Part shown: positions 29,946 to 59,571 of the stretch, in pieces | How positions within the stretch are numbered: the first letter of the stretch is position 1 | How the letters are laid out: each line of letters begins with the position of its first letter | DNA from: Siphonodentalium dalli | Taxonomy: Eukaryota; Mollusca; Scaphopoda; Gadilida; Siphonodentaliidae | Direction: 5' to 3' | Length of the DNA stretch: 64,000 nt | NCBI GenBank assembly: GCA_032622095.1 | Contig: CP136063.1 | Location: forward strand, 27,344,987-27,408,986 | The notes under the pieces: generated by a model | What the model was told of the DNA's origin: nothing | Seen by the model: only the letters and a program-made list of their open reading frames with translations | The model's database searches: none | Translations under genes and position numbers: made by a program

Positions 29946-32696
29946 TGATGACCACTGATCATCTGTTCTGGATACCTTAATTAAACATCGATATGTAACC
30001 TGGAGTGCTCATGACGGGCAATGATTATCTGTTCTGGAGACCGTAATTAAAGATCGATATTTAATCTGGAGTTATTCATGACGAGCAATGATTATCTGTC
30101 CTTGAGACCACAAATAAACATCGATATTTAACCTGGAGCTATTCATGACGAGCACTGATTATCTGTTCTGGAGACCACAATTAAACATCGATATTTAAGC
30201 TGGAGTTCTTCATGGCGGGCAATGATTATCTGCTCTGGATACCACAATTAAACATCGATATTTAACCTTGAGTTATTCATGACGAGCACTGATTATCTGT
30301 TGTGTAGACCATAATTAAACATCGATATTTAACCTTGAGTTATTCATGACGGGCACTGATTATCCGTTCTGGATACCATAATTAAACATCGATATTTAAC
30401 CTGGAGTTCTCATGACGGGCAACGAGTAGCTGTTCTGGAGACCATAATTAAAGATCGATATGTTACCTTGAGTTATTTATAACGGGCAGTGTTTATCTGT
30501 TCAGGAGACCATAATTAAAGATCGATATTTAACCTTGAGTTATTCATAACGGGCAATGATTATCTGTTCTGGAGACCATAATTAAACATCGATATTTATC
30601 CTGAAATTATTCATAACGGTCACTGATTATATGTGCTGGAGACCATAATTAAGGATCGATATTTAACCAGGAGTTCTCATGCCGGGCACTGATTATGTGT
30701 TCTGGAGTCCGTAAATAAAGATTTATATTTAACCTGGTTTCTCATGACGGGCACTGATTAATTAAACATCGATATTTAACCTTGTGTTATTCATGACGGG
30801 CACTGATTATCCGTTCTGGATACCATAATTAAACATCGATATTTAACCTGGAGTTCTCATGACGGGCAACGAGTAGCTGTTCTGGAGACCATAATTAAAG
30901 ATCGATATGTTACCTTGAGTTATTCAAAACGGGCAGTGATTATCTGTTCTGGAGACCATAATTAAAGATCGATATTTAACCTTGAGTTATTCATAACGGG
31001 CAATGATTATCTGTTCTGGAGACCATAACTAAATATCGATATTTAACCTGGAGTTATTCATGATGGGCACTGATTATCTGTTCTGGAAACCATGACCAAA
31101 CATCGATATTTAACCTGAAGTTCTCATGACGGAAACTGATTATCTGTTCTGGAGACCGTAATTAAAGATTGATATTTAACCTGGAGTTCTCATGACGGGC
31201 AGTGATTATCTGTTCTGGAGATCATAATTAAACATCGATATTTAACCTGGAGTTATTCATGACGAGCAATGATGATCTGTCCTGGAGACCATAATTAAAA
31301 GTCGGTATTTAACCTGGAGTCATTCATGACGGGCACTGATTATCTGTTCTGGACTCCATAATTAAACATCGATATTTATCCTTGAGTTATTCAAAACGTG
31401 CAATGATTATATGTTCTGGAGACAATAATTAATGATCGATATTTAACCTTGAGTTATTCAAAACGGGCAATGATTATCTGTTCTGGAGACCGTAATTAAA
31501 TATCGATATATATCCTGGAGTTATTCATGACGGGCACTGATTATCTGTTCAGGAGACCATAATTAAACATCGATATTTAACCTGGAGTTATTAATTACGG
31601 CCAATGTTTATTTGTTCTGGAGACCATAATTAAAGGTCGATATTTAACCTCGAGTTATTCAAAACGGGCAATGATTATATGTTCTGGAGACATTAACTGA
31701 ATATCGATAGTTAACCAGGAGTTATTCATGACGGGCACTGATTATCAGTTCAGGAGACCATAATTAAACATCGATATTTAACCTGGAGTTCCTCTTGACG
31801 AGCACTTTATTATCTGTTCTGGAGACCACAATTAAACATCGATATTTAACCTGGAGTTCTCATGACGGGCAATGAGTATCTGTTCTGGAGACCATAAATA
31901 AATATCGTTATTTAACCTGGAGTTATTCATGACGACCACTGATTATCTGTTCTGGAGACCATAATTAAACATATATATTTAACCTGGAGTTCTCATGACG
32001 GGCAATGATTATCTGTTCTGGAGACCATAATTAAAGATCGATATTTAACCTTCAGTTATTCAAAACGGGCAATGATTATCTGTTCTGGAGACGATAATTA
32101 AACATCGATATTTAACCTGGAGTTCTCATGACGGGCAATGATTATCTGTTCTGGAGACCATAATTAAAGATCGATATTTAACCTGGAGTTATTCATGACG
32201 ACCACTGATTATCTGTTCTGGAGACCATAATTAAACATATATATTTAACCTGGAGTTAACCTGATTATCTGTTCTGGAGAACATAATTAAAGATCGATAT
32301 TTAACCTGGAGTTATTCATGACGAGCACTGATTATCTATTCTGGAGACCACAATTAAACATCGATATATAAGCTGGAGTTCTTCATGGCGGGCAAAGATT
32401 ATCTGCTCTGGTGACCACAATTAAACATCGATATTTAACCTTGAGTTATTCATGACGAGCACTGATTATCTGTTGTGTAGACCATAATTAAACATCGATA
32501 TTTAACCTTGAGTTATTCATGACGGGCACTGATTATCCGTTCTGGATACCATAATTAAACATCGATATTTAACCTGGAGTTCTCATGACGGGCAATGAGT
32601 ATCTGTTCTGGAGGCCATAATTAAAGATCGATATGTTACCTTGAGTTATTCATAACGGGCAATGATTATCAGTTCTGGATACCATAATTAAACATC
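29946..32696 (+). repeat. 2.9-kb HOR copy A, interrupted by the palindromic element
   Basis: This stretch matches 49708-52458 with a constant offset of 19,762 bp, checked at TGATGACCAC (29946/49708), GGAGTTAACC (32252/52014) and the AACATC at the insertion point (32691/52453). It also matches the next copy 2907 bp further on. Internal signatures are the shortened monomers CTGATTAATTAAACATC (30754) and GGAGTTAACCTGATTATC (32252). The copy stops within a monomer at TAATTAAACATC, exactly where the element begins. Confidence 0.9.
32691..32696 (+). repeat. Left 6-bp target site duplication (AACATC)
   Basis: AACATC directly precedes the first base of the palindromic element and is repeated directly after its last base at 46621-46626. 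The next base out differs on the left (A) from the base inside the right end (T), so the duplication is exactly 6 bp. It is part of the normal monomer sequence TTAAACATCGATATTTAACC. Confidence 0.9.
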
Positions 32697-32762
32697 AGTA
32701 GTGTATAGGAGTAATCTTTCCGTATACTTGATAGAAGGAGAGTTATAGTAAGACTTATTAAA

Positions 32763-32890
32763 AACTATTTCTAGGCAGATGGTTATAGTAAGCAAACTAT
32801 TTCTAGGCAGATGGTAATAGTAAGCAAACTATTTCTAGGCAGATGGTATAGTAAGCAAACTATTTCTAGGCAGATGATATAGTCAGGCTA
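32763..32890 (+). repeat. Subterminal 31-32 bp tandem repeats, left end
   Basis: Four tandem units share AAACTATTTCTAGGCAGATG followed by GTTATAGTAAGC or a slightly altered form. The ACTATT cores begin at about 32764, 32796, 32828 and 32859, giving periods of 32, 32 and 31 bp. They lie 66 bp inside the element terminus. Arrays of short direct repeats near the end of long inverted termini are known in Maverick/Polinton relatives, including the Tlr elements of Tetrahymena, and could be binding sites for the mobilising protein. Function is inferred from position only. Confidence 0.9.
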
Positions 32891-33298
32891 ACTAGTAACT
32901 ATTTGAAGGAATTAGTACGCACGATTGAATACATGTATTGATATATAGGTTAGTTATGATAGATTAGTAAAATAATGAGATGAATTATTCGCTAGTGAAT
33001 AACCTCGTGTATGTAAAAAACCACAAGGCTAAAACACATGGAATATTTGTTAGTGTCGGAACTGTTTCTTCTTTATTGTAGATTTATAGGTAACACTATT
33101 CGATCTCATAAAACTCGATATTACAGAGTCTCGTAGAAATCTAAATGTGGAACCCAACACTTTAGTTCATGTAATGAATATAAATGGTATAAATAAATCT
33201 TAGTATACAAACAGATATAAAAAAACATAATCAAATCAATCTTTTGTTAAGATATGGACAGTCTGGTCTCCCCGTCGAAATATCTTCTGGCAAAACAG
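32891..33298. other. Left-arm segment with a TTCGCTAGTGAA quasi-palindrome
   Basis: No gene is seen. TTATTCGCTAGTGAATAA at 32985-33002 is a near-perfect 18-bp palindrome. It is followed by TGTAAAAAACCACAAGGCTA and a stretch to about 33120 that recurs, diverged, at 33741-33860 in the same arm. The mirror segment is 46019-46426. Confidence 0.7.
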
Positions 33299-33675
33299 TA
33301 TCAATATTTAAAGTCAGACTAATTATTTCTAGGTTGGTCATAAAATTACTACTTCTAGTCTATGGGTTATACTCAGGCAAACTATTTCTAGGTTAATCAA
33401 AAATATCAGAGTGGTAAACTAAATCTACAAATATTAATTGGAATATAGAGAAAAGAGTTAGCTCCCCTGTGAATTGTAACAGTATCCAAATGTATCAATA
33501 TTTTAAGTCAGACTAATTATTTCTAGGTTGGTCATAAAATTACTACTTCTAGGCTATGGGTTATACTCAGGCAAACTATTTCTAGGTTAATCAAAAATAT
33601 CAGAGTTGTAAACTAAATCTACAAATATTAATTGGAATATAAAGAAAAGAGTTAGCTCCCCTGTGAATTGAATAA
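33299..33675 (+). repeat. 194-bp tandem duplication, left arm
   Basis: Two direct copies start at TATCAATATTTAAAGTCAG (33299) and TATCAATATTTTAAGTCAG (33493). Each contains AATTATTTCTAGGTTGGTCA, CTACTTCTAGKCTATGGG and AAACTATTTCTAGGTTAATC, and ends AGTTAGCTCCCCTGTGAATT. The ACTATTTCTAGG core is the same as in the subterminal tandem repeats, so the motif spreads over almost 900 bp from the end. The copies differ at a few bases only. Confidence 0.9.
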
Positions 33676-33740
33676 TCTGTTTTATTAAGTTCAATATAGA
33701 TGTTAAACGATTGATATATGTTAATGAATGATACAATGAT

Positions 33741-33860
33741 ATATTCGTTAGCGAATAAACCTATGCATGTAAAAACCACAAGTCTAAACACATTGAACTT
33801 TTTTTAGGAACGTTCTTCTGTAGATTAATAGGCAACACATTTCAAAAACACCATTCCATA
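33741..33860 (+). repeat. Diverged copy of the 32985-33120 segment, left arm
   Basis: ATATTCGTTAGCGAATAA (33741-33758) is followed by CATGTAAAAACCACAAGTCT, CTTCTGTAGATTAATAGGCA and ACACATTTCAAA. These parallel the TTCGCTAGTGAA, TGTAAAAAACCACAAGGCTA and GTAGATTTATAGGTAACAC run 756 bp further out. The quasi-palindrome is kept as TTCGYTAGYGAA while surrounding bases differ, which may mean that it is functional. Confidence 0.75.
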
Positions 33861-34233
33861 GTGATAGAAATCGAAATGTATAACCATTATCGGTTCCTTT
33901 AAACATTATGAATGATGGAAATATATTCAAATCAATCAACTTATGTTGGAATATATAAAAATATGTGTATCAAGCATGTTAAATTGTGAATAATTAGTTA
34001 TTTATATCACACCAACGTTAATTCATAATCTATAGTATTTTACGAAAGAAAACTGGAACAAATAGTAACTATTTTCGGTTTATATCAAGACAACGTATTT
34101 CAATTCCAACACAAATTCAATATTTCAGAAAAATTAAAAAAATCTCTCTTTTAATGAAATATTAAATGTAAAAGCACGATAAAACACAATTTAAGTTACT
34201 TTTTCGTCAACAAAATTGAAGTTATATGTTATA

Positions 34234-34500
34234 ATGCTTAAAAATACATCAAAATATGAAAATCAAATATCTCAATTCAAAGCCAAATTTAAAAAAAACA
34301 ATTTCAATGTTAACGGAAACAATTTAACAACAAAAAAATCTTTATCTGTTTTGGCTAGCAAGTATCAAAAGTCCTTTTTCATTCCCACAATAATCGTAAA
34401 ACACAATAAATGTTTTGTCTTTAATAAAAAAAAATATAAAAATATTATAATCATAGTCAAAAAAATTCAAGCACAAACTTTATATGTAAAAAAAATATGA
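34234..34500 (+). CDS. Possible small basic ORF, left arm (doubtful)
   Basis: From the ATG at 34234 an 88-codon frame (MLKNTSKYENQ...) runs to TGA at 34498-34500. The open frame extends six codons upstream to a TTG, which is an unlikely eukaryotic start. The predicted product is rich in Lys and Asn, with a hydrophobic run PTIIV and a later IIIIV, and ends in a Lys-rich tail. I recognise no family. The DNA is A-rich with AAA and AAT runs, which lowers stop frequency, so the frame could be chance. It is the longest frame in the arm outside the repeat arrays and is intact in both arms. No promoter or polyadenylation context is convincing. Confidence 0.15.
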   Translation: MLKNTSKYENQISQFKAKFKKNNFNVNGNNLTTKKSLSVLASKYQKSFFIPTIIVKHNKCFVFNKKKYKNIIIIVKKIQAQTLYVKKI

Positions 34501-34511
34501 AAATTAAATAA

Positions 34512-34930
34512 AACTTACTTGCCTACTAAAGAACAGATCTATCAAAGTACAATTCTCTCTCAATTTTTACCTATGCGAATGTATCTGTTTATATAAGGAA
34601 AAAACATTCTATCTTTAGTCCCAAGCAAATGATGTCATTCGAGGAATCTTTCTTTAAGTCGAATAATCTACCAACATATATCACAAAACATGATGAGGTC
34701 TTCGTCGAGAATTCATGTCCGACTCTGTTTAACATAACAAGACTTACTTACTCATCAAAGAACAGATAATCTATCGAAGTATAATACTGTCTCAATTTTA
34801 CCTATCCGAATGTATCTGTTTATATAAAAAAACATTCATTCTATCTTTAGGTCCCATCAAAATGATGTCATACGACCCAAGTCGAATAATCTAATATCAT
34901 TCGTCGAGAATTCATGTCGAGCTCTAGTTA
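34512..34930 (+). repeat. About 230-bp imperfect tandem duplication, left arm
   Basis: Two direct copies begin CTTACTTGCCTACTAAAGAA (34515) and CTTACTTACTCATCAAAGAA (about 34743). Both continue through ACAGATMWATCWATC, GAATGTATCTGTTTATATAA, ACATTCTATCTTTAG or its variant, AATGATGTCATWCGA and GTCGAGAATTCATGTC. The second copy is about 40 bp shorter. No reading frame spans them. Confidence 0.8.
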
Positions 34931-35429
34931 TATACAGTAACACATTAATTTACTCAAGCTATCTATACTCCCAAACAAATCAGTCGAGCTATCTTGTTAA
35001 ATGTTCTCGTATGCCTATCATAATGTACCCTCCCATTTTATCCGACCACATGAATAATATAATTCATGTCGACATATATCTGTACAAGGCGACTAATTTA
35101 TTCAACTAGGCTACCCAGCTTGGATCATATTTCAAAGAACTCATTCGTTAACGACCCGTCCTTACAAAACGAATAATTTATACTACACCTGTCAAATTTG
35201 CATATTTAAGGTATGTTACGGTAAACATTCCAATGTATGCTATATAAGCCAGCTAAAATAGGAAATCAAAGCATGGATTCAATAGTCAGATAAGTTTATT
35301 ATATTATGATTTCAGATAACTTTTAATTAATTATTATCTTGTTCAACATATATTCTATGTAATTTAAAACAATATATTATATAAAGTTTCTATATTAATC
35401 GGAGCGAAACATATTGAGGAAGTTTGAAG
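34931..35429. other. Left-arm unique AT-rich segment
   Basis: No gene, tandem repeat or strong hairpin is seen. It contains the arm mismatch at 35116 (C on the left; T-equivalent at 44201 on the right). The mirror segment is 43888-44386. Confidence 0.6.
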
Positions 35430-36097
35430 CAGTTGTCTTAAAGTGACACTAAGATTTATTTTCTTATTTGCACACAGTATACTTTGTTTAAACCAGATGT
35501 CTTAAAATGGCACTAAGATTTATTTTATTATTTTATACTATTTATAAACAAGATGTCTTAAAAGGGCACTAAGATTTCATTTAAATCTCCAAAAGTGTTT
35601 CAATATTACAGCAAAATTTGTTTTTTTTAATAATTTTTACCTCAGAATTGTTAATAAATAAGTCTTCTTCACATCTTAATTCTTAAAAGGGCGCTAATAA
35701 TTTAACTCAAATATGGTTGAAAATTTATCGTTAAAGAGCGTTTATTCTCTGCTTGTATGCAACTCTTTCAATCCCTCGTAATATTTGGATACAGTATACT
35801 TTGTTCATCCCAGATATCTTAAAATGAAACTAAGATTTATTTTCTTAATTTATCCATACTATTTATAAACAAGATGTCTTAAAAGGGCACTAAGATTTCA
35901 TTTTATAATTTCAATACCAAAAGTGTTTCAATATCACAGCAACAAAAAAAATTGGAATAATTTTACCCTAGAATTGTTAATAAATAAGTCTTCTTCACAT
36001 CTTAATTCTTAACAGGGCGCTAATAATTTAACTCAAATATGGTTGTACATTTATCGATAAAGAGCGTTTATTATCTGTTTGTATGCAACTCTTAATT
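35430..36097 (+). repeat. 317-bp tandem duplication with CTTAAAAGGGCACTAAGATT motifs, left arm
   Basis: Two copies (starting near 35470 and 35787; ACAGTATACTTTGTT at 35474 and 35791) each carry GATGTCTTAAAAGGGCACTA, CAAAAGTGTTTCAATATYAC, TAAATAAGTCTTCTTCACAT, GGGCGCTAATAATTTAACTC and AAGAGCGTTTATT. A shorter motif GTCTTAAARKGRCACTAAGA occurs at least five times: twice in each copy and once just outside the first. This makes a nested repeat. Function unknown. Confidence 0.88.
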
Positions 36098-36117
36098 ATT
36101 TAAAAAAAAAATAAAAC

Positions 36118-36162
36118 GGATACTGTTACACTATTACTTTTAGATAGTATATTACAGTATCC
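36118..36162. repeat. GGATACTGT hairpin, left arm
   Basis: GGATACTGT at 36118 pairs perfectly with ACAGTATCC ending at 36162, and a weaker TA-ACTAT/ATAGT extension lies inside, giving a 45-nt imperfect hairpin. GGATACTGTTAC is the exact reverse complement of GTAACAGTATCC at 33476-33487 in the same arm. Related GTAACAG motifs lie at about 36296 and 36397. Confidence 0.75.
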
Positions 36163-37171
36163 AAATTAACATTGTTGCAATTCAGATTCTACGGAAAGTT
36201 ATCTTTAAACATGCAAACTAAAAACAATAATCATAGTTTTACAATTTGTTTTTATGTAAAATCTTATTTGTCTACACGTTGTGGCTAAGCAAATCGTAAC
36301 AGTATATTTACATTTATCTAGCAAATGCGCTCTAATTTCTACAAATTAACATTCCAATTCAAATTTTTTATTTTTTTTTGAAAAAATAAATACTGTAACA
36401 GTTTTGTTTACATAATAAATAAAGATAACACTTAACTGATTATGGCAAATAATTCTGCTCTTAATCATAATGGCAACATGAGTTGGAAAAAAAACATGCT
36501 GGTTAATCCGTACGCAATTTAGCATCAGATGTAAACATGCTCGGACAGAAACAATTCCCGGTCGTTCGTTTTTAAACTTACAATTGATGCAGGGTGAAGT
36601 GTCAAGCGTTAAGTTTCAACAAGCAGTGAATGGCCATTATATATCTGATTAATTTACCTTTGTATACAGCATAACGCCCGTGTTGGCATCTGCACGCACG
36701 CTTAAAACTCATTAGTCATTGAAATTTGAAAATTTAGAATAATTATTTATCGCGCATTCATCGTACAGATTTATACGATGAAAGCAAATATAAACTGCGT
36801 ATGTGCACACGACTAATATATACTTTCAATGCTATGCCTATAAATAGTATGCAATTATCTCACAGAATCAATCAAACAATAATATTAAGCTAATTCTGTT
36901 AGTTACACCATTGCATCTGAAATTGCTCGATGTCGTTAGACTATAGGTTAATGTGTGTTTTATATGCATGTTCCCGTTCATTATCTGCACATTTTTAAAT
37001 CGTCACGGAAATCTACCTACTAACATATTTGAACGCACATTATAATTTGGATAGTTAAATCATACATCTTATCACTGGAAAAATATGAATATATGCTCTA
37101 AATCTGTTGGCAGGGCTATTTCAATATACAACATCATATGTATTCAATGTTTCTAATATATAAATTATACC
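36163..37171. other. Left-arm unique segment with an 8-bp perfect hairpin
   Basis: No gene is seen in about 1 kb. TCATCGTA (36758-36765) and TACGATGA (36774-36781) form an 8-bp perfect stem around CAGATTTA. The stretch is somewhat richer in G and C near 36.5-36.7 kb (for example GCACGCACGC) than the rest of the arm. The mirror is 42147-43155, with the hairpin at 42537-42560. Confidence 0.65.
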
Positions 37172-38616
37172 CCAAATTATCATACAAAAAATATGTTTTC
37201 AAGATGGCATCCAATATGGCTATTCAGAAATGTGAGCTTCAAAATATATCCTGATAAAATGTACACATTTACTGTGATCATATATCGTACAACTGGATGT
37301 ATTAACGTTTATAGCGTAATACCTATGCTATCTCCATTACAAAAGATGGCTGCCGAAATGGCCATCGTTTACTTCAAGATACAGGGCTTAAAAATGTATT
37401 GCATTTTTACAAAGGCTCATATGCATCATTTAGGTTTGTAGTTTGTATAGTATATGCTAAATTATCATACAATTTGTCATCACAAAAAAAACCAATATAT
37501 ATTTTCAAGATGGCGTCCAATATGGCTATTCAGAAATGTCAGCTTCAAAATATATCTTGATAAAATGTACACATTTGCTGTGATCATATATCGTACAACT
37601 GGATGTATTAGCGTTTATAGCGTAATACCTATGCTATCTCCATTACAAAAGATGGCTGCCGAAATGGCCATCGTTTACTTCAAGATACAGGGCTTAAAAA
37701 TGTATTGCATTTTTACAAAGGCTCATATGCATCATTTAGGTTTGTAGTTTGTATAGTATATGCTAAATTATCATACAATTTGTCATCACAAAAAAAATAT
37801 ATATATATTTTCAAGATGGCGTCCAATATGGCTATTCAGAAATGTCAGCTTCAAAATATATCTTGATAAAATGTACACATTTGCTGTGATCATATATCGT
37901 ACAACTGGATGTATTAACGTTTGTAGCGTAATACCTATGCTATCTCCATTACAAAAGATGGCTTCCAAAATGGCCATCGTTTACTTCAAGATACAGGGCT
38001 TAAAAATGTATTGCATTTTTACAAAGGCTCATATGCATCATTTAGGTTTGTAGTTTGTATAGTATATGCTAAATTATCATACAATTTGTCATCACAAAAA
38101 AAAAAACAATATATATTTTCAAGATGGCGTCCAATGTGGCTATTCAGAAATGTCAGCTTCAAAATATATCTTGATAAAATGTACACATTTGCTGTGATCA
38201 TATATCGTACAACTGGATGTATTAGCGTTTATAGCGTAATACCTATGCTATCTCCATTACAAAAGATGGCTGCCGAAATGGCCATCGTTTACTTCAAGAT
38301 ACAGGGCTTAAAAATGTATTGCATTTTTACAAAGGCTCATATGCATCATTTAGGTTTGTAGTTTGTATAGTATATGCCAAATTATCATACAATTTGTCTT
38401 CACAAAAAAAAACAATATATATTTTCAAGATGGCGTCCAATATGGCTATTCAGAAATGTCAGCTTCAAAATATATCATGATAAAATGTACACATTTGCTG
38501 TGATCATATATCGTACAACTGGATGTATTAGCGTTTATAGCGTAATACCTATGCTATCTCTATTACAAAAGATGGCTTCCAAAATGGCCACCTTTACTCT
38601 AAAATACAGAGCTTAA
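37172..38616 (+). repeat. 306-bp tandem array with AAGATGGC motifs, left arm
   Basis: Five units follow each other with CAAGATGGC starting at 37200, 37506, 37812, 38120 and 38426 (periods 306, 306, 308, 306). The first lacks part of its left edge and the last ends early. Each unit contains CAAGATGGCGTCCAATATGG, a second AAAAGATGGCTGCC or AAGATGGCTTCC, and AAATGGCCATCG, so three ATGGC-type boxes per unit. AAGATGGC is the core recognised by the zinc-finger factor YY1 in animals. TAAAAATG and CATTTTTA form a small stem in each unit. Since 306 is 102 codons, similar 80-116 codon frames recur in each unit, each closed by TAG; I treat these as chance. Confidence 0.93.
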
Positions 38617-39210
38617 AATTACATGCATAATTTAGAAAGTTGATTTTGATTAGTTATACTACTTATTTCTTCAAAGAGTTAATATTTCCTTATTCTTATC
38701 ACAGTTTTAAAAACAATCAACAAAAATCTTCATTGTGTATCATATAATGAGTTCTTGGTAGGCTATCTCATTGTACAACATATACGTATTTATATTTGTT
38801 TGTAATATCCAATGGAGTATTTCGTAAATAAAGTTGTCAAATGCTATAATATAATATAAACTCTCAATATCAAAGTATTAAACAAACGAAAAAATAGTCA
38901 CAGAGCCGTCCCATGGGGTAGAATCCCTCTAATACATATCTCATACACAATATTACTTTGTTTTAAACCGAGTTGTGTGGAACATCGACATTTTAATATC
39001 ATTTTAATCAACCGTTCTAGAACAAATTACTTACACAATCTTTTCTTAAAAGCTGTTAAAAAAAATTGTCTACCTAATTCACAATTATTTTTTTGCTAGG
39101 TTCGTAGTATTATCATATGGAGCGTAGGTTCGAAAACGAAATTAGTAAGAATGCTTTTTTTTGGTAGTGGGAATGTGTCACGGGTAAATTCTGCTATAAT
39201 TCACTTAATG
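38617..39210. other. Left-arm unique segment inside the 306-bp array
   Basis: No gene or repeat is seen. It holds two of the arm differences: the substitution at 38901/40417 and the AAAG/AAG indel near 38960. The mirror is 40109-40701. Confidence 0.6.
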
Positions 39211-39430
39211 CTATGTTTTCAAGATGGCGTCCAATATGGCAACTGAGAACTGTGAGCTTCAAAATATATCTGATAAATTGTATGCCTTAGTTAATATGAT
39301 CACATAATTATGCGCTTGGCTGTCTTCGCGTTGATAACGTATTAGCAACGCTGACCCCATTATAAAATGGCAAACATTTACTTCAAAATATACAGCTTCA
39401 GAGAAATGTTCGGTATTTTACAAAATAAGA
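39211..39430 (+). repeat. Diverged relic of the 306-bp unit next to the centre, left arm
   Basis: ATGTTTTCAAGATGGCGTCC (CAAGATGGC at 39220) is followed by AATATGGCAACTGAGAACTG, GAGCTTCAAAATATATCTGA and later ATAAAATGGCAAACATTTAC and TTCAAAATATACAGCTTC. The order of boxes matches the tandem units, but the spacing is shorter and many bases differ. It is an older copy that did not take part in the recent five-copy expansion. Confidence 0.85.
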
Positions 39431-39653
39431 CCGAGTGATATTTTGTCTTTCTTCTCGAAATGTATGAACAAAACAAGAGATGATATACATTACAAACAAC
39501 TGAAATGTAGTCAGTTGACGACCACTATACACAAAAATAAATTTGATTACTGCCAACACAGTGTCAGAATTGAAAAATAAATAGTAAATGTGTATCATAA
39601 ACACTATAATATCGCATTGAATATTCATTTTATTTATTTATATTATGTCGACC
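39431..39653. other. Innermost left arm, no supported gene
   Basis: A 76-codon ATG frame reads outward on the minus strand (39398-39628), with its mirror at 39691-39921 on the plus strand. The two starts face each other across the centre. The predicted peptide is hydrophobic at its start (several Ile, Phe and Tyr) with no recognisable domain. Given the A/T composition I regard it as chance. Confidence 0.4.
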
Positions 39654-39665
39654 TTATGTAAAACG
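39654..39665. other. Palindrome centre (12-bp spacer)
   Basis: The innermost paired bases are CGACC (39649-39653) and GGTCG (39666-39670), with one mismatch at 39648/39671 and then TATTATG pairing with CATAATA. The unpaired spacer is TTATGTAAAACG. Flanking arm DNA is almost pure A/T (TATTTATTTATATTATG). A symmetric cut at such a hairpin tip followed by repair could create a short asymmetric spacer; this mechanism is inference. Confidence 0.9.
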
Positions 39666-39888
39666 GGTCGGCATAATATAAATAAATAAAATGAATATTC
39701 AATGCGATATTATAGTGTTTATGATACACATTTACTATTTATTTTTCAATTCTGACACTGTGTTGGCAGTAATCAAATTTATTTTTGTGTATAGTGGTCG
39801 TCAACTGACTACATTTCAGTTGTTTGTAATGTATATCATCTCTTGTTTTGTTCATACATTTCGAGAAGAAAGACAAAATATCACTCGG

Positions 39889-40108
39889 TCTTATTTTGTA
39901 AAATACCGAACATTTCTCTGAAGCTGTATATTTTGAAGTAAATGTTTGCCATTTTATAATGGGGTCAGCGTTGCTAATACGTTATCAACGCGAAGACAGC
40001 CAAGCGCATAATTATGTGATCATATTAACTAAGGCATACAATTTATCAGATATATTTTGAAGCTCACAGTTCTCAGTTGCCATATTGGACGCCATCTTGA
40101 AAACATAG
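39889..40108 (-). repeat. Diverged relic of the 306-bp unit, right arm
   Basis: Mirror of 39211-39430, containing GGACGCCATCTTGAAAACAT. Together the two relics bracket the palindrome centre. Confidence 0.85.
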
Positions 40109-40701
40109 CATTAAGTGAATTATAGCAGAATTTACCCGTGACACATTCCCACTACCAAAAAAAAGCATTCTTACTAATTTCGTTTTCGAACCTACGCTCC
40201 ATATGATAATACTACGAACCTAGCAAAAAAATAATTGTGAATTAGGTAGACAATTTTTTTTAACAGCTTTTAAGAAAAGATTGTGTAAGTAATTTGTTCT
40301 AGAACGGTTGATTAAAATGATATTAAAATGTCGATGTTCCACACAACTCGGTTTAAAACAAGTAATATTGTGTATGAGATATGTATTAGAGGGATTCTAC
40401 CCCATGGGACGGCTCTATGACTATTTTTTCGTTTGTTTAATACTTTGATATTGAGAGTTTATATTATATTATAGCATTTGACAACTTTATTTACGAAATA
40501 CTCCATTGGATATTACAAACAAATATAAATACGTATATGTTGTACAATGAGATAGCCTACCAAGAACTCATTATATGATACACAATGAAGATTTTTGTTG
40601 ATTGTTTTTAAAACTGTGATAAGAATAAGGAAATATTAACTCTTTGAAGAAATAAGTAGTATAACTAATCAAAATCAACTTTCTAAATTATGCATGTAAT
40701 T

Positions 40702-42146
40702 TTAAGCTCTGTATTTTAGAGTAAAGGTGGCCATTTTGGAAGCCATCTTTTGTAATAGAGATAGCATAGGTATTACGCTATAAACGCTAATACATCCAGT
40801 TGTACGATATATGATCACAGCAAATGTGTACATTTTATCATGATATATTTTGAAGCTGACATTTCTGAATAGCCATATTGGACGCCATCTTGAAAATATA
40901 TATTGTTTTTTTTTGTGAAGACAAATTGTATGATAATTTGGCATATACTATACAAACTACAAACCTAAATGATGCATATGAGCCTTTGTAAAAATGCAAT
41001 ACATTTTTAAGCCCTGTATCTTGAAGTAAACGATGGCCATTTCGGCAGCCATCTTTTGTAATGGAGATAGCATAGGTATTACGCTATAAACGCTAATACA
41101 TCCAGTTGTACGATATATGATCACAGCAAATGTGTACATTTTATCAAGATATATTTTGAAGCTGACATTTCTGAATAGCCACATTGGACGCCATCTTGAA
41201 AATATATATTGTTTTTTTTTTTGTGATGACAAATTGTATGATAATTTAGCATATACTATACAAACTACAAACCTAAATGATGCATATGAGCCTTTGTAAA
41301 AATGCAATACATTTTTAAGCCCTGTATCTTGAAGTAAACGATGGCCATTTTGGAAGCCATCTTTTGTAATGGAGATAGCATAGGTATTACGCTACAAACG
41401 TTAATACATCCAGTTGTACGATATATGATCACAGCAAATGTGTACATTTTATCAAGATATATTTTGAAGCTGACATTTCTGAATAGCCATATTGGACGCC
41501 ATCTTGAAAATATATATATATTTTTTTTGTGATGACAAATTGTATGATAATTTAGCATATACTATACAAACTACAAACCTAAATGATGCATATGAGCCTT
41601 TGTAAAAATGCAATACATTTTTAAGCCCTGTATCTTGAAGTAAACGATGGCCATTTCGGCAGCCATCTTTTGTAATGGAGATAGCATAGGTATTACGCTA
41701 TAAACGCTAATACATCCAGTTGTACGATATATGATCACAGCAAATGTGTACATTTTATCAAGATATATTTTGAAGCTGACATTTCTGAATAGCCATATTG
41801 GACGCCATCTTGAAAATATATATTGGTTTTTTTTGTGATGACAAATTGTATGATAATTTAGCATATACTATACAAACTACAAACCTAAATGATGCATATG
41901 AGCCTTTGTAAAAATGCAATACATTTTTAAGCCCTGTATCTTGAAGTAAACGATGGCCATTTCGGCAGCCATCTTTTGTAATGGAGATAGCATAGGTATT
42001 ACGCTATAAACGTTAATACATCCAGTTGTACGATATATGATCACAGTAAATGTGTACATTTTATCAGGATATATTTTGAAGCTCACATTTCTGAATAGCC
42101 ATATTGGATGCCATCTTGAAAACATATTTTTTGTATGATAATTTGG
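40702..42146 (-). repeat. 306-bp tandem array with AAGATGGC motifs, right arm
   Basis: Mirror of the left array, with five units reading GGACGCCATCTTGAAAATAT. The unit-specific variants (for example CACATTGGACG in the fourth unit and GGATGCCATC in the first) are kept in mirror order. The palindrome therefore arose after the 306-bp amplification, or the arms have been homogenised since. Confidence 0.93.
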
Positions 42147-43155
42147 GGTATAATTTATATATTAGAAACATTGAATACATATGATGTTGTATATTGAAAT
42201 AGCCCTGCCAACAGATTTAGAGCATATATTCATATTTTTCCAGTGATAAGATGTATGATTTAACTATCCAAATTATAATGTGCGTTCAAATATGTTAGTA
42301 GGTAGATTTCCGTGACGATTTAAAAATGTGCAGATAATGAACGGGAACATGCATATAAAACACACATTAACCTATAGTCTAACGACATCGAGCAATTTCA
42401 GATGCAATGGTGTAACTAACAGAATTAGCTTAATATTATTGTTTGATTGATTCTGTGAGATAATTGCATACTATTTATAGGCATAGCATTGAAAGTATAT
42501 ATTAGTCGTGTGCACATACGCAGTTTATATTTGCTTTCATCGTATAAATCTGTACGATGAATGCGCGATAAATAATTATTCTAAATTTTCAAATTTCAAT
42601 GACTAATGAGTTTTAAGCGTGCGTGCAGATGCCAACACGGGCGTTATGCTGTATACAAAGGTAAATTAATCAGATATATAATGGCCATTCACTGCTTGTT
42701 GAAACTTAACGCTTGACACTTCACCCTGCATCAATTGTAAGTTTAAAAACGAACGACCGGGAATTGTTTCTGTCCGAGCATGTTTACATCTGATGCTAAA
42801 TTGCGTACGGATTAACCAGCATGTTTTTTTTCCAACTCATGTTGCCATTATGATTAAGAGCAGAATTATTTGCCATAATCAGTTAAGTGTTATCTTTATT
42901 TATTATGTAAACAAAACTGTTACAGTATTTATTTTTTCAAAAAAAAATAAAAAATTTGAATTGGAATGTTAATTTGTAGAAATTAGAGCGCATTTGCTAG
43001 ATAAATGTAAATATACTGTTACGATTTGCTTAGCCACAACGTGTAGACAAATAAGATTTTACATAAAAACAAATTGTAAAACTATGATTATTGTTTTTAG
43101 TTTGCATGTTTAAAGATAACTTTCCGTAGAATCTGAATTGCAACAATGTTAATTT

Positions 43156-43200
43156 GGATACTGTAATATACTATCTAAAAGTAATAGTGTAACAGTATCC
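43156..43200. repeat. GGATACTGT hairpin, right arm
   Basis: Mirror of the left-arm hairpin, beginning GGATACTGTAATATACTATC and ending GTAACAGTATCC. Confidence 0.75.
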
Positions 43201-43219
43201 GTTTTTTTTTTTTTTAAAT

Positions 43220-43887
43220 AATTAAGAGTTGCATACAAACAGATAATAAACGCTCTTTATCGATAAATGTACAACCATATTTGAGTTAAATTATTAGCGC
43301 CCTGTTAAGAATTAAGATGTGAAGAAGACTTATTTATTAACAATTCTAGGGTAAAATTATTCCAATTTTTTTTGTTGCTGTGATATTGAAACACTTTTGG
43401 TATTGAAATTATAAAATGAAATCTTAGTGCCCTTTTAAGACATCTTGTTTATAAATAGTATGGATAAATTAAGAAAATAAATCTTAGTTTCATTTTAAGA
43501 TATCTGGGATGAACAAAGTATACTGTATCCAAATATTACGAGGGATTGAAAGAGTTGCATACAAGCAGAGAATAAACGCTCTTTAACGATAAATTTTCAA
43601 CCATATTTGAGTTAAATTATTAGCGCCCTTTTAAGAATTAAGATGTGAAGAAGACTTATTTATTAACAATTCTGAGGTAAAAATTATTAAAAAAAACAAA
43701 TTTTGCTGTAATATTGAAACACTTTTGGAGATTTAAATGAAATCTTAGTGCCCTTTTAAGACATCTTGTTTATAAATAGTATAAAATAATAAAATAAATC
43801 TTAGTGCCATTTTAAGACATCTGGTTTAAACAAAGTATACTGTGTGCAAATAAGAAAATAAATCTTAGTGTCACTTTAAGACAACTG
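43220..43887 (-). repeat. 317-bp tandem duplication, right arm
   Basis: Mirror of 35430-36097, with the AAATCTTAGTGCCCTTTTAA motif repeated in the same spacing. The outer boundary abuts the T homopolymer whose length differs between arms. Confidence 0.88.
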
Positions 43888-44386
43888 CTTCAAACTTCCT
43901 CAATATGTTTCGCTCCGATTAATATAGAAACTTTATATAATATATTGTTTTAAATTACATAGAATATATGTTGAACAAGATAATAATTAATTAAAAGTTA
44001 TCTGAAATCATAATATAATAAACTTATCTGACTATTGAATCCATGCTTTGATTTCCTATTTTAGCTGGCTTATATAGCATACATTGGAATGTTTACCGTA
44101 ACATACCTTAAATATGCAAATTTGACAGGTGTAGTATAAATTATTCGTTTTGTAAGGACGGGTCGTTAACGAATGAGTTCTTTGAAATATGATCCAAGCT
44201 AGGTAGCCTAGTTGAATAAATTAGTCGCCTTGTACAGATATATGTCGACATGAATTATATTATTCATGTGGTCGGATAAAATGGGAGGGTACATTATGAT
44301 AGGCATACGAGAACATTTAACAAGATAGCTCGACTGATTTGTTTGGGAGTATAGATAGCTTGAGTAAATTAATGTGTTACTGTATA

Positions 44387-44805
44387 TAACTAGAGCTCGA
44401 CATGAATTCTCGACGAATGATATTAGATTATTCGACTTGGGTCGTATGACATCATTTTGATGGGACCTAAAGATAGAATGAATGTTTTTTTATATAAACA
44501 GATACATTCGGATAGGTAAAATTGAGACAGTATTATACTTCGATAGATTATCTGTTCTTTGATGAGTAAGTAAGTCTTGTTATGTTAAACAGAGTCGGAC
44601 ATGAATTCTCGACGAAGACCTCATCATGTTTTGTGATATATGTTGGTAGATTATTCGACTTAAAGAAAGATTCCTCGAATGACATCATTTGCTTGGGACT
44701 AAAGATAGAATGTTTTTTCCTTATATAAACAGATACATTCGCATAGGTAAAAATTGAGAGAGAATTGTACTTTGATAGATCTGTTCTTTAGTAGGCAAGT
44801 AAGTT
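44387..44805 (-). repeat. About 230-bp imperfect tandem duplication, right arm
   Basis: Mirror of the left-arm pair, with GACATGAATTCTCGACGA in both copies and TTATATAAACAGATACATTC as a shared core. Confidence 0.8.
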
Positions 44806-44816
44806 TTATTTAATTT

Positions 44817-45083
44817 TCATATTTTTTTTACATATAAAGTTTGTGCTTGAATTTTTTTGACTATGATTATAATATTTTTATATTTTTTTTTATTAAAGAC
44901 AAAACATTTATTGTGTTTTACGATTATTGTGGGAATGAAAAAGGACTTTTGATACTTGCTAGCCAAAACAGATAAAGATTTTTTTGTTGTTAAATTGTTT
45001 CCGTTAACATTGAAATTGTTTTTTTTAAATTTGGCTTTGAATTGAGATATTTGATTTTCATATTTTGATGTATTTTTAAGCAT
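44817..45083 (-). CDS. Possible small basic ORF, right arm (doubtful)
   Basis: Exact mirror of the left-arm frame, starting at the ATG complementary to 45081-45083 and ending at 44817. The predicted peptide is identical. Because the arms are almost identical everywhere, its conservation is not evidence of selection on the protein. Confidence 0.15.
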   Translation of the reverse strand: MLKNTSKYENQISQFKAKFKKNNFNVNGNNLTTKKSLSVLASKYQKSFFIPTIIVKHNKCFVFNKKKYKNIIIIVKKIQAQTLYVKKI

Positions 45084-45456
45084 TATAACATATAACTTCA
45101 ATTTTGTTGACGAAAAAGTAACTTAAATTGTGTTTTATCGTGCTTTTACATTTAATATTTCATTAAAAGAGAGATTTTTTTAATTTTTCTGAAATATTGA
45201 ATTTGTGTTGGAATTGAAATACGTTGTCTTGATATAAACCGAAAATAGTTACTATTTGTTCCAGTTTTCTTTCGTAAAATACTATAGATTATGAATTAAC
45301 GTTGGTGTGATATAAATAACTAATTATTCACAATTTAACATGCTTGATACACATATTTTTATATATTCCAACATAAGTTGATTGATTTGAATATATTTCC
45401 ATCATTCATAATGTTTAAAGGAACCGATAATGGTTATACATTTCGATTTCTATCAC

Positions 45457-45576
45457 TATGGAATGGTGTTTTTGAAATGTGTTGCCTATTAATCTACAGA
45501 AGAACGTTCCTAAAAAAAGTTCAATGTGTTTAGACTTGTGGTTTTTACATGCATAGGTTTATTCGCTAACGAATAT
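45457..45576 (-). repeat. Diverged copy of the TTCGYTAGYGAA segment, right arm
   Basis: Mirror of 33741-33860, containing TTATTCGCTAACGAATAT. A reading frame that starts with GTG at 45526 crosses it for 63 codons, but it has no ATG start and no recognisable domain, so I do not treat it as a gene. Confidence 0.75.
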
Positions 45577-45641
45577 ATCATTGTATCATTCATTAACATA
45601 TATCAATCGTTTAACATCTATATTGAACTTAATAAAACAGA

Positions 45642-46018
45642 TTATTCAATTCACAGGGGAGCTAACTCTTTTCTTTATATTCCAATTAATATTTGTAGAT
45701 TTAGTTTACAACTCTGATATTTTTGATTAACCTAGAAATAGTTTGCCTGAGTATAACCCATAGCCTAGAAGTAGTAATTTTATGACCAACCTAGAAATAA
45801 TTAGTCTGACTTAAAATATTGATACATTTGGATACTGTTACAATTCACAGGGGAGCTAACTCTTTTCTCTATATTCCAATTAATATTTGTAGATTTAGTT
45901 TACCACTCTGATATTTTTGATTAACCTAGAAATAGTTTGCCTGAGTATAACCCATAGACTAGAAGTAGTAATTTTATGACCAACCTAGAAATAATTAGTC
46001 TGACTTTAAATATTGATA
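45642..46018 (-). repeat. 194-bp tandem duplication, right arm
   Basis: Mirror of the left-arm duplication; both copies and their CCTAGAAATAGTTTGCCTGA cores are present in reverse complement. The inner edge adjoins AATTCACAGGGGAGCTAACT. Confidence 0.9.
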
Positions 46019-46426
46019 CTGTTTTGCCAGAAGATATTTCGACGGGGAGACCAGACTGTCCATATCTTAACAAAAGATTGATTTGATTATGTTTTTTGAT
46101 ATCTGTTTGTATACTAAAATTTATTTATACCATTTATATTCATTACATGAACTAAAGTGTTGGGTTCCACATTTAGATTTCTACGAGACTCTGTAATATC
46201 GAGTTTTATGAGATCGAATAGTGTTACCTATAAATCTACAATAAAGAAGAAACAGTTCCGACACTAACAAATATTCCATGTGTTTTAGCCTTGTGGTTTT
46301 TTACATACACGAGGTTATTCACTAGCGAATAATTCATCTCATTATTTTACTAATCTATCATAACTAACCTATATATCAATACATGTATTCAATCGTGCGT
46401 ACTAATTCCTTCAAATAGTTACTAGT

Positions 46427-46554
46427 TAGCCTGACTATATCATCTGCCTAGAAATAGTTTGCTTACTATACCATCTGCCTAGAAATAGTTTGCTTACTAT
46501 TACCATCTGCCTAGAAATAGTTTGCTTACTATAACCATCTGCCTAGAAATAGTT
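46427..46554 (-). repeat. Subterminal 31-32 bp tandem repeats, right end
   Basis: This is the mirror copy of the left subterminal array: four units reading CATCTGCCTAGAAATAGTTT with GCTTACTATA between them. It preserves the unit number and order of the left end, so both ends would present the same binding platform in opposite orientation. Confidence 0.9.
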
Positions 46555-46620
46555 TTTAATAAGTCTTACTATAACTCTCCTTCTATCAAGTATACGGAAA
46601 GATTACTCCTATACACTACT

Positions 46621-46626
46621 AACATC
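46621..46626 (+). repeat. Right 6-bp target site duplication (AACATC)
   Basis: AACATC follows the last base of the element (CACTACT) and continues into GATATTTAACCTGGAGTTC, the normal rest of the interrupted monomer. It duplicates 32691-32696. Confidence 0.9.
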
Positions 46627-46789
46627 GATATTTAACCTGGAGTTCTCATGACGGGCAATGATTATCTGTTCTGGAGACCATAATTAAACATTGATATTTT
46701 ACCTGGAGTTCTCATGACGGGCAATGAGTATCTGTTCTGGAGACCATAATTAAAGATCGATATTTAACCTGGAGTTCTCATGACGGGCA

Positions 46790-49700
46790 ATGAGTATCTG
46801 TTCTGGAGACCATAATTAAAGATCGATATTTAACCTGGAGTTCTCATGACGGGCAATGAGTATCTGTTCTGGAGACCATAATTAAAGATCGATATGTTAC
46901 CTTGAGTTATTCATAACGGGCAGTGATTATCTGTTCTGGAGACCATAATTAAAGATCGATATTTAACCTTGAGTTATTCATAACGGGCAATGATTATCTG
47001 TTCTGGAGACCATAATTAAACATCGATATTTATCCTGAAATTATTCATAACGGTCACTGATTATCTGTTCTGGAGACCATAATTAAACATCGATATTTAT
47101 CCTTGAGTTATTCATGACGGGCACTGATTATCTGTTCTGGAGACCATAATTAAATATCGATATTTAACCTGGAGTTCTCATGACGGGCAATGAGTATCTG
47201 TTCTGGAGACCATAATTAAAGACTGATATGTTACCTTGAGTTATTCATAACGGTCAATGCTTATCTGTTCTGGAGACCATAATTAAAGATCGATATTTAA
47301 CCTGGAGTTCTCATGACGGGCAATGATTATCTGTTCTGGAGGCCGTAATTAAAGATTGATATTTAACCTGGAGTTATTCATAACTACATATTTAACCTGG
47401 TGTTCTCATAACGGGCACTGATTATCTGTTCTGGAGACCATAACTATATATCGATATTTAATCTGGAGTTATTCATGACGGGCACTGATTATCTGTTCTG
47501 GGGGACCATAATTAAACATCGATATTTAACCTTGAGTTATTCATGACGGGCACTGATTATCTGTTCTGGAGACCATAATTAAACATATATATTTAACCTG
47601 GAGTTCTCATGACCGGCAATGAGTATCTGTTCTGGAGACCATAATTAAAGACTGATATGTTACCTTGAGTTATTCATAACGGTCAATGCTTATCTGTTCT
47701 GGAGACCATAATTAAAGATCGATATTTAACCTTGAGTTATTCATAACGGGCAATGATTATCTGTTCTGGAGACTATAAATAAACATCAATTATTATCCTG
47801 GAATTATTCATAACGGTCACTGATTATCTGTTCTGGAGACCATAATTAAGGATCGATATTTAACTTGGTGTTCTCATGATGGTCACTGATTATCTGTTCT
47901 GGAGACCATAATTAAAGATCGACATTTATCCTGGAATTATTCATAACGGTCACTGATTATCTGTTCTGGAGACCGTAATTAAAGATCGATATTTAGCCTG
48001 GAGTTATTCATGATGACCACTGATCATCTGTTCTGGATACCTTAATTAAACATCGATATGTAACCTGGAGTGCTCATGACGGGCAATGATTATCTGTTCT
48101 GGAGACCGTAATTAAAGATCGATATTTAATCTGGAGTTATTCATGACGAGCAATGATTATCTGTCCTTGAGACCACAAATAAACATCGATATTTAACCTG
48201 GAGCTATTCATGACGAGCACTGATTATCTGTTCTGGAGACCACAATTAAACATCGATATTTAAGCTGGAGTTCTTCATGGCGGGCAATGATTATCTGCTC
48301 TGGATACCACAATTAAACATCGATATTTAACCTTGAGTTATTCATGACGAGCACTGATTATCTGTTGTGTAGACCATAATTAAACATCGATATTTAACCT
48401 TGAGTTATTCATGACGGGCACTGATTATCCGTTCTGGATACCATAATTAAACATCGATATTTAACCTGGAGTTCTCATGACGGGCAATGAGTATCTGTTC
48501 TGGAGACCATAATTAAAGATCGATATTTAACCTGGAGTTCTCATGACGGGCAATGAGTATCTGTTCTGGAGACCATAATTAAAGATCGATATGTTACCTT
48601 GAGTTATTCATAACGGGCAGTGATTATCTGTTCTGGAGACCATAATTAAAGATCGATATTTAACCTTGAGTTATTCATAACGGGCAATGATTATCTGTTC
48701 TGGAGACCATAATTAAACATCGATATTTATCCTGAAATTATTCATAACGGTCACTGATTATCTGTTCTGGAGACCATAATTAAACATCGATATTTATCCT
48801 TGAGTTATTCATGACGGGCACTGATTATCTGTTCTGGAGACCATAATTAAATATCGATATTTAACCTGGAGTTCTCATGACGGGCAATGAGTATCTGTTC
48901 TGGAGACCATAATTAAAGACTGATATGTTACCTTGAGTTATTCATAACGGTCAATGCTTATCTGTTCTGGAGACCATAATTAAAGATCGATATTTAACCT
49001 GGAGTTCTCATGACGGGCAATGATTATCTGTTCTGGAGGCCGTAATTAAAGATTGATATTTAACCTGGAGTTATTCATAACTACATATTTAACCTGGTGT
49101 TCTCATAACGGGCACTGATTATCTGTTCTGGAGACCATAACTATATATCGATATTTAATCTGGAGTTATTCATGACGGGCACTGATTATCTGTTCTGGGG
49201 GACCATAATTAAACATCGATATTTAACCTTGAGTTATTCATGACGGGCACTGATTATCTGTTCTGGAGACCATAATTAAACATATATATTTAACCTGGAG
49301 TTCTCATGACCGGCAATGAGTATCTGTTCTGGAGACCATAATTAAAGACTGATATGTTACCTTGAGTTATTCATAACGGTCAATGCTTATCTGTTCTGGA
49401 GACCATAATTAAAGATCGATATTTAACCTTGAGTTATTCATAACGGGCAATGATTATCTGTTCTGGAGACTATAAATAAACATCAATTATTATCCTGGAA
49501 TTATTCATAACGGTCACTGATTATCTGTTCTGGAGACCATAATTAAGGATCGATATTTAACTTGGTGTTCTCATGATGGTCACTGATTATCTGTTCTGGA
49601 GACCATAATTAAAGATCGACATTTATCCTGGAATTATTCATAACGGTCACTGATTATCTGTTCTGGAGACCGTAATTAAAGATCGATATTTAGCCTGGAG

Positions 49701-50180
49701 TTATTCATGATGACCACTGATCATCTGTTCTGGATACCTTAATTAAACATCGATATGTAACCTGGAGTGCTCATGACGGGCAATGATTATCTGTTCTGGA
49801 GACCGTAATTAAAGATCGATATTTAATCTGGAGTTATTCATGACGAGCAATGATTATCTGTCCTTGAGACCACAAATAAACATCGATATTTAACCTGGAG
49901 CTATTCATGACGAGCACTGATTATCTGTTCTGGAGACCACAATTAAACATCGATATTTAAGCTGGAGTTCTTCATGGCGGGCAATGATTATCTGCTCTGG
50001 ATACCACAATTAAACATCGATATTTAACCTTGAGTTATTCATGACGAGCACTGATTATCTGTTGTGTAGACCATAATTAAACATCGATATTTAACCTTGA
50101 GTTATTCATGACGGGCACTGATTATCCGTTCTGGATACCATAATTAAACATCGATATTTAACCTGGAGTTCTCATGACGG
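46790..50180 (+). repeat. 1697-bp tandem higher-order repeat, two copies
   Basis: Landmarks repeat with a fixed offset of 1697 bp: GATATGTTAC 46891/48588, TACATATTTA 47385/49082 and TGATGACCAC 48011/49708. Each copy includes the rare CTGTTCTGGGGGACCATAA monomer and ATGACCGGCAATG. The copies look almost identical, so the duplication is recent. The second copy overlaps the start of the 2907-bp units. Confidence 0.92.
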
Positions 50181-58500: not shown

Positions 58501-59571
58501 TAGCATGGAGTTATTCATGACGGGCAATGAGTATCTATTCTGGAGACCATAATTAAAGATCGATATTTAACCTTGAGTTATTCATAACGGGCAATGATTA
58601 TCTGTTCTGGAGACAATAATTAAAGATCGATATTTAACCTTGAGTTATTCAAAACGGACAATGATTATCTGTTCTGGAGACCGTAATTAAATATCGATAT
58701 CTGACCTAGAGCTATTCATGACGGGCACTGATTATCTGTTCTGGAGACCATAATTAAATATCAATATTTAACCTGGAGATCTCATGACGAGCAATGAGTA
58801 TCTGTTCTGGAGACCATAATTAAAGATCGATATGTTACCTTGAGTTATTCATAACGGGCAGTGATTATCTGTTCTGGAGACCATAATTAAAGATCGATAT
58901 TTAACCTTGAGTTATTTATAACGGGCAATGATTATCTGTTCTGGGGACCATAATTAAAGATCGATATTTAACCTTGAGTTATTTATAACGGGCAATGATT
59001 ATCTGTTCTGGAGACCATAATTAAGGATCGATATTTAACCTGGAGTTCTCATTACGGGCAATGAGTATCTGTTCTGGAGACCATAATTAAAGATCGATAT
59101 GTTACCTTGAGTTATTCATAACGGGCAGTGATTATCTGTTCTGGAGACCATAATTAAAGATCGACATTTAACCTTGAGTTATTCATAACGGGCAATGATT
59201 ATCTGTTCTGGAGACCATAATTAAACATCGATAATTATCCTGAAATTATTCATAACGGTCACTGATTATCTGTGCTGGAGACCATAATTAAGGATCGATA
59301 TTTAACCTGGAGTTCTCATGACGGGCAATGAGTATCTGTTCTGGAGACCATAATTAAAGATCGATATGTTACCTTGAGTTATTCATAACGGGCAATGAGT
59401 ATCTGTTCTGGAGACCATAATTAAAGATCTATATTTAACCTTGAGTTAATCATAACAGGCAATGATTATCTGTTCTGGAGACCATAATTAAACATCGATA
59501 ATTATCCTGAAATTATTCATAACGGTCACTGATTATCTGTGCTGGAGACCATAATTAAGGATCGATATTTA
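55522..59571 (+). repeat. Satellite block with 1933-bp and 468-bp spaced duplications
   Basis: The TGACCTAGAGCTATTC monomer occurs at 56301, 58234 and 58702 (spacings 1933 and 468 bp). The CACCGATTATCTGTCCTGG to CTGGTTTCTCATGACGGG series occurs at about 55.86 and 57.79 kb. CGATAATTATCCTGAAATTA monomers are frequent. The same markers occur at 26.57-27.9 kb. No gene is seen. Confidence 0.8.

Follow-up and report, generated by a model that had tools for sequence, protein, structure and literature searches.

A gene-less 13.9 kb palindrome in the scaphopod Siphonodentalium dalli as a probable satellite of Maverick/Polinton elements

The DNA analysed here, referred to as the window, is a stretch of 64,000 nucleotides from the genome of the mollusc Siphonodentalium dalli (GenBank assembly GCA_032622095.1, contig CP136063.1, positions 27,344,987 to 27,408,986). 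It contains a palindromic element of 13,924 bp in which the inverted repeat fills the entire element, and which is bounded by the type of ends found on Maverick (Polinton) elements. The features of the element and its insertion site are listed below by position in the window.

32691..32696, unstranded: target-site duplication AACATC, left copy.
32697..39653, + strand: left arm of the palindrome (6,957 nt), from the arm-versus-arm alignment.
32697..33196, + strand: Maverick-type terminal inverted repeat of about 500 bp, starting AGTAGTGTATAGGAGTAATC, at about 82-94 % to both ends of ten coding Mavericks.
32762..32883, + strand: 31-bp subterminal tandem repeat, 3.9 copies, the junction zone of two terminus types with the shared arm.
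33197..37026, + strand: apparently non-coding segment common to one side only of nine Mavericks that lack the protein-primed DNA polymerase (pPolB), 79-96 % in long alignments.
37027..39653, + strand: segment without a blastn match in the ten coding Mavericks fetched, including the 306-bp array at 37191-38618.
39618..39627, unstranded: self-complementary 10-mer TGAATATTCA within the type A arm, the symmetry axis of spacerless (type B) palindromes elsewhere.
39654..39665, unstranded: 12-nt spacer TTATGTAAAACG, which forms the type A loop and recurs in 10 of the 14 type A centres fetched from other loci.
39666..46620, - strand: right arm of the palindrome (6,955 nt), from the arm-versus-arm alignment.
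46121..46620, - strand: Maverick-type terminal inverted repeat, right copy, ending ACTACT.
46621..46626, unstranded: target-site duplication AACATC, right copy.

A first-pass annotation, made from the sequence alone, had described arms of about 6.96 kb around a 12-bp spacer, and end-to-end alignment agrees with this: the arms are 99.9 % identical and differ by five substitutions and two 1-nt indels. In 20 sequences shuffled in two-base blocks, the longest exact inverted match between the halves was 16 nt, which excludes a chance origin for the match of the arms. The same annotation had reported the 6-bp duplication AACATC and the restoration of a satellite monomer on removal of the element, and both were found again. 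The duplication is perfect and, when 140 nt of flank from each side are joined, the 66/67-bp satellite spacing is regained at the junction. The joined 280 nt match an uninterrupted satellite copy at about 55226-55504 of the window with 99.3 % identity, and this copy is, judged by the match, a paralogous empty site. The remainder of the window (1-32696 and 46627-64000) consists of 67-bp satellite in which large blocks are duplicated, the copy of the empty site being one such block.

Near-perfect long palindromes are a known type of artefact, and an error of assembly or sequencing, namely a fold-back read with a missed adapter, has to be considered. However, the left and right flanks are one 67-bp satellite in direct orientation, with a mutual match of >5 kb when 6 kb on each side were compared, and there was no inverted match between the two 6 kb segments. 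Because the flanking satellite matches in direct and not in inverted orientation, a fold-back read is unlikely.

The interior of the element is not featureless, since tandem subarrays are present in both arms (31 bp, 3.9 copies; 194 bp, 1.9 copies; 306 bp, 4.7 copies). A 326-bp tandem repeat of two copies was also reported in the left arm. The 306-bp array (96 %) is found once per arm, at 37191-38618 and 40700-42127, and open frames of up to 144 aa, the longest without a Pfam match, span its units.

The genome searched for further copies comprises 2.23 Gb in nine contigs, and all of the evidence comes from this one host. A 1-kb arm probe gave at least 104 matches (40 of 297 candidates scored), many of which form plus/minus pairs about 9.5-12 kb apart. 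With a probe of the 941 bp adjoining the axis, long matches were found at at least 34 loci (34 of 88 candidates scored), comprising 29 with both arms facing, one arm being partial in some, and five with a single long arm. The copy counts from both probes are lower bounds. Four extra copies with facing arms and matching ends were recovered by the arm probe alone (C4:52.13, C5:150.50, C7:188.11 and C9:157.60 Mb). Perfect 6-bp duplications, all of different sequence, flank 15 of the 15 palindromes for which both ends could be read, namely the window element and three others, nine further and two more; a candidate at C2:102.69 Mb was left out of this count, as its right end is outside the fetched piece. 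The earlier view of the palindrome as a single inserted mobile unit is therefore borne out by many palindromic copies, full palindromes among them, whose ends are of the same kind and whose duplications are likewise 6 bp long. These copies also bear on the possibility of an artefact, as 15 loci each have their own different duplication, and in some copies the ends have diverged or the centre is asymmetric. On the basis of the direct flanks and the different duplications at 15 loci, we reject an artefact, which is scarcely credible and the least probable of the explanations weighed.

The ends of the window element, AGTAGT//ACTACT, conform to the (AGT)2//(ACT)2 motif. With up to two mismatches, the terminal 20-mer has 30 matches in the genome, mostly in facing pairs 12-17 kb apart. 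As the backwards control of this 20-mer gave 43 matches, the argument rests on the facing pairs and the duplications and not on the count. A longer gapped pattern of the terminus gave 99 matches, with none for its control. Ten of the 12 facing pairs of the terminal 20-mer other than the window element, designated E1-E10, were fetched as halves; they were picked by the window element's own terminus and are a sample biased towards its relatives. All ten have perfect, mutually different 6-bp duplications, are 12-17 kb in size, and carry inverted repeats of about 370-520 bp at their termini (89.5-99.4 %) around unique interiors.

When ten translated pieces of these Mavericks were compared with Pfam, five matched above the cut-off and five did not. 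The matches were to rve (1.2e-14 and 4.2e-16), DNA_pol_B_2 (4.6e-26 and 2.8e-12, two pieces of E7) and Adeno_IVa2 (4.3e-5). In tblastn searches, the integrase, the packaging ATPase and a 435-aa capsid-like protein matched in all ten elements. Among the 111 relatives of the 435-aa protein are several named F54H12.2, a name that we take to mark the Polinton major capsid protein, and a 364-aa open reading frame (ORF) presumably encodes a minor capsid protein. A PHROGs search with six Maverick proteins gave no match. Relatives with genes, which the first-pass annotation had proposed to look for, are thus present as coding Mavericks with the same ends. Its suggestion of a mobile unit unrelated to known kinds was not supported, as the ends, the duplication length and the size are those of Mavericks/Polintons of the same genome. 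The unit is a gene-less palindromic Maverick satellite rather than a member of an unknown class.

A Foldback/Galileo-like transposon with expanded inverted repeats, unrelated to Mavericks, is one further explanation, and Galileo copies (PMC4168063) are resembled in the very long inverted repeats, the tandem subrepeats and the near absence of a unique centre. However, the ends and first ~500 bp here belong to elements that carry genes for an integrase, an ATPase and capsid-like proteins, and all 15 palindromes with readable ends have a 6-bp duplication, versus 7-8 bp given for Galileo (PMC4168063). Membership of this group was rejected on the duplication length, and we regard such an origin as highly improbable.

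In nine of the Mavericks (all but E7), only one side aligns with the window arm, from arm position 1 to ~4,330, and this is the side on which E7 carries pPolB. The E7 pPolB pieces had no tblastn match in the other nine Mavericks or in the window arm. By these comparisons, nine of the ten fetched Mavericks are without that pPolB and have instead the apparently non-coding segment that the palindrome uses twice. Beyond ~4,330, the arm, including the 306-bp array, has no blastn match in E1-E10.

The ratio of nonsynonymous to synonymous substitution (dN/dS) for the 435-aa frame is 0.09-0.24 where dS is above zero (seven of the ten elements used, E1-E5, E8 and E10, which are pPolB-less and have no stops in this frame), with four of the seven frames nearly identical, leaving few independent comparisons. 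For the 364-aa frame, with five of the ten elements used, the ratio is 0-0.44 and is highest against E7. These values are compatible with constraint on the capsid-like genes in pPolB-less elements. When two interior points were sampled in each of a further seven elements for which no palindrome centre is known, pPolB was found on one side and the 364-aa capsid-like ORF on the opposite side in every case.

No Pfam match at or above the cut-off was found for the 10 scanned of the 20 arm ORFs of at least 60 aa, and nine Maverick proteins or pieces had no tblastn match in the arm. Structured RNA and tRNA were looked for in the window element and none was found. The arm has 20 stop-to-stop frames of at least 60 aa compared to a mean of 7 in 100 mononucleotide shuffles, an excess that leaves some room for a coding arm; half of these frames (10/20) lie in or overlap the 306-bp array. 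Six arm ORFs, identified by position, were traced by tblastn, and five were matched in relatives. ORF 33193 and ORF 34530 are both uninterrupted at the three palindrome loci compared and broken in Mavericks. ORF 34828 is open in seven pPolB-less Mavericks and has a stop in three palindromes. ORFs 34195 and 36349 (minus) are broken in Mavericks, and 34195 is also frameshifted in palindromes. ORF 38860 is outside the region covered by the fetched relatives. A coding arm is unlikely, as each of the five matched small outer-arm ORFs is interrupted in some relatives. On this gene content the window element is a non-autonomous derivative and not a full Maverick, because no pPolB, integrase, ATPase or capsid genes were found in the arm.

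The centres differ in form. Of the 14 type A centres fetched from other loci, ten have the 12-nt loop of the window element, in either orientation, and four have shorter or altered loops. The other fetched centres comprise five perfect spacerless palindromes at TGAATATTCA and one with a separate odd axis. The spacerless 26-mer at the axis is present with zero mismatches at eight loci on five contigs, and its control gave zero. Type B could have originated by snapback at the self-complementary TGAATATTCA or by deletion between its two copies. Several centres are asymmetric, as expected for decay of a palindrome after insertion.

Over the outer 3 kb, the left and right arms of four palindromes are 99.90, 100, 99.97 and 99.93 % identical, and identity between different palindromes is 97.65-98.95 %, with 132-560 gap columns. 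Over the outer 450 bp, with gaps counted, the left-right distance is 0.00 % in all four; for three of them, every other terminus compared is 21-33 % away, and the window end is 1.77 % from E1/E2. Among the ten Mavericks, a terminus has its own partner as the strictly nearest in only four (E3, E6, E7 and E10), and the two ends of E2, E9 and E10 differ by 4.57, 18.18 and 16.98 %, respectively.

At least two terminus types are found in the palindromes, type 1 (AGTAGTGTATA...) in six and type 2 (AGTAGTATTAAG...) in nine, and the type is the same on both ends in 15 of 15. Among 43 facing type-1 pairs (13 of 99 termini were unpaired), 38 have identical 40-bp ends despite the existence of 18 variants; with random partners, the mean was 4.6 identical and the maximum 14. 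Alignment of the type-2 ends with the type-2 end of a coding Maverick gave matching pieces at 88-99 %. In five of the eight such ends that were examined, the 31-bp repeats known from the window arm start after ~350-450 bp of type-2 sequence. Over 170 bp, the own partner is nearest in seven of nine type-2 palindromes.

Both types are also found on coding elements. The pPolB family search (69 of 1596 candidates scored; control genomes with a signal, 0/14) gave stop-free frames of 1312-1330 aa in type-1-ended and type-2-ended elements, and by this measure potential helpers with both kinds of ends exist in the genome. Alongside the 1312-1330 aa group there is a second pPolB group, which is abundant and has open frames ~952 aa long. 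A coding Maverick at C8:85534108-85548087 has two unrelated ends, type 1 on the left and type 2 on the right, and a perfect 6-bp duplication, CGGTCA, which suggests that terminus exchange between types happens.

The same Maverick satellite could also have had its arms kept identical after insertion by gene conversion within the chromosome, with no hairpin stage. The arms of Y-chromosome palindromes are homogenised by gene conversion, and here the arms are adjacent and could pair, so that ordinary recombination could homogenise them to the point where only seven differences are left. Against this, the terminus type varies between elements but never between the two ends of a palindrome (15/15), and some palindromes have diverged ends (96.1 % over 207 bp; 4 of 175), which indicates that in these copies homogenisation did not continue indefinitely after insertion. 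Gene conversion is therefore unlikely, though less so than a Foldback/Galileo origin. We infer that the arms were equalised before or at integration, most simply via a hairpin or snapback stage.

The sizes of the elements are also similar. The 27 palindromes with both ends known have a median length of 13,875 bp (interquartile 13,578-14,026), and 27 type-2 pairs without a known palindrome centre, four of them sampled inside, have a median of 14,358 bp; the type-2 listing covers about 100 of 133 termini. The mean for 42 type-1 pairs of <20 kb, palindromes included, is 13.4 kb. These sizes are compatible with a packaging limit but do not prove one.

In the explanation that we consider probable, the element is a non-autonomous, gene-less Maverick/Polinton satellite, in which one apparently non-coding Maverick terminus is used twice, inverted, around a short loop, each arm also containing a 2.6-kb inner segment, and which would be made by helper replication, integration and hairpin copying. 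The palindrome probably moves with Maverick machinery supplied in trans. The protein-primed DNA polymerase of a helper would start at the AGTAGT ends, and the helper's retroviral-type integrase would insert the duplex and create the 6-bp duplication. Packaging in the capsid may keep the palindrome near the helper in size. Displaced strands could form a long hairpin, or prime their own synthesis after snapping back, and at this step one arm would be rewritten from the other. Such rewriting would keep the element palindromic and would also explain a change of terminus type at both ends. An analogy is offered by adenoviruses, which form snapback defective genomes.

Several observations weigh against this explanation or parts of it. 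The termini of the Mavericks E1, E3, E5 and E7 are also alike within the element (0.00-0.44 % over the outer 450 bp), so an equalising process need not be special to palindromes, and two of the nine type-2 palindromes have one end nearer to the end of another element over 170 bp. The C8 Maverick integrated with unlike ends, and matching ends are accordingly not obligatory. A one-step snapback from any of the ten fetched Mavericks is unsupported, as the arm beyond ~4,330 is unmatched there. In addition, four of the 15 palindromes (those listed above as recovered by the arm probe alone) are facing 1-kb arm matches with matching ends whose centres were unread, the palindromes were seen here solely as integrated copies and not in extrachromosomal, single-stranded or packaged form, and the data are from one host genome.

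A more specific proposal, to which we give somewhat less than an even chance, is that the palindromes are a Polinton satellite lineage that replicates as a self-complementary hairpin with one origin. Such a gene-less lineage would borrow the termini of the active Maverick family, copy a new terminus to the other end via the hairpin, and have reached at least 34 loci in the form of complete palindromes, some of them spacerless. Each displaced strand would fold back on itself into 7 kb of duplex, the open end of which would carry the protein-primed origin, and would be copied round the loop. The hairpin genome form raised in the first-pass annotation is plausible to this extent, with indirect support from the homogenised arms and the spacerless copies; the extrachromosomal DNA it implies was not seen.

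Extrachromosomal protein-primed replication of Polintons, and the exploitation of these elements in trans, have mostly been inferred from gene content. Gene-less palindromes with the ends of a helper, 6-bp duplications and arms equalised at insertion would be a genomic footprint of an extrachromosomal protein-primed cycle. A ladder of parasitism within one genome is also suggested, from complete Mavericks, via pPolB-less Mavericks with seemingly constrained capsid-like genes, to palindromes that retain ends only. Near-perfect palindromes on the kilobase scale are normally unstable, and the copies described here suggest that they can be a multiplying form.

No description of palindromic or non-autonomous Polintons was found in titles and the starts of abstracts in the open-licence PMC literature, and an exact-phrase search was also empty. 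Intact vertebrate Mavericks (PMC8097293) have 6-bp duplications and (AGT)2//(ACT)2 or (AG)3//(CT)3 ends, and are 12.7-24.6 kb long, with terminal repeats of 46-1,447 bp. The window element shares with them the 6-bp duplication, the (AGT)2//(ACT)2 ends, the size and the possession of long terminal inverted repeats, and its first ~500 bp are similar to those of coding Mavericks of the same genome. It differs in that no Maverick gene was found in it, one apparently non-coding end is present in both halves, the inner segment is unseen in ten coding elements, and the repeat extends over the full length of the element, in excess of the 46-1,447 bp reported for the intact vertebrate ones (PMC8097293). 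Foldback/Galileo elements are alike in their very long inverted repeats with tandem subrepeats, and sequence acquired by one terminal repeat of Galileo can appear in the other (PMC4168063); they differ in having a P-superfamily transposase, where the relatives here are Mavericks. The snapback defective genomes of adeno-associated virus (PMC8235507) are likewise self-complementary and made from one end of the parental genome. Those forms were seen in virions, whereas the palindromes described here are integrated copies at many loci, and their putative polymerase is the protein-primed pPolB.

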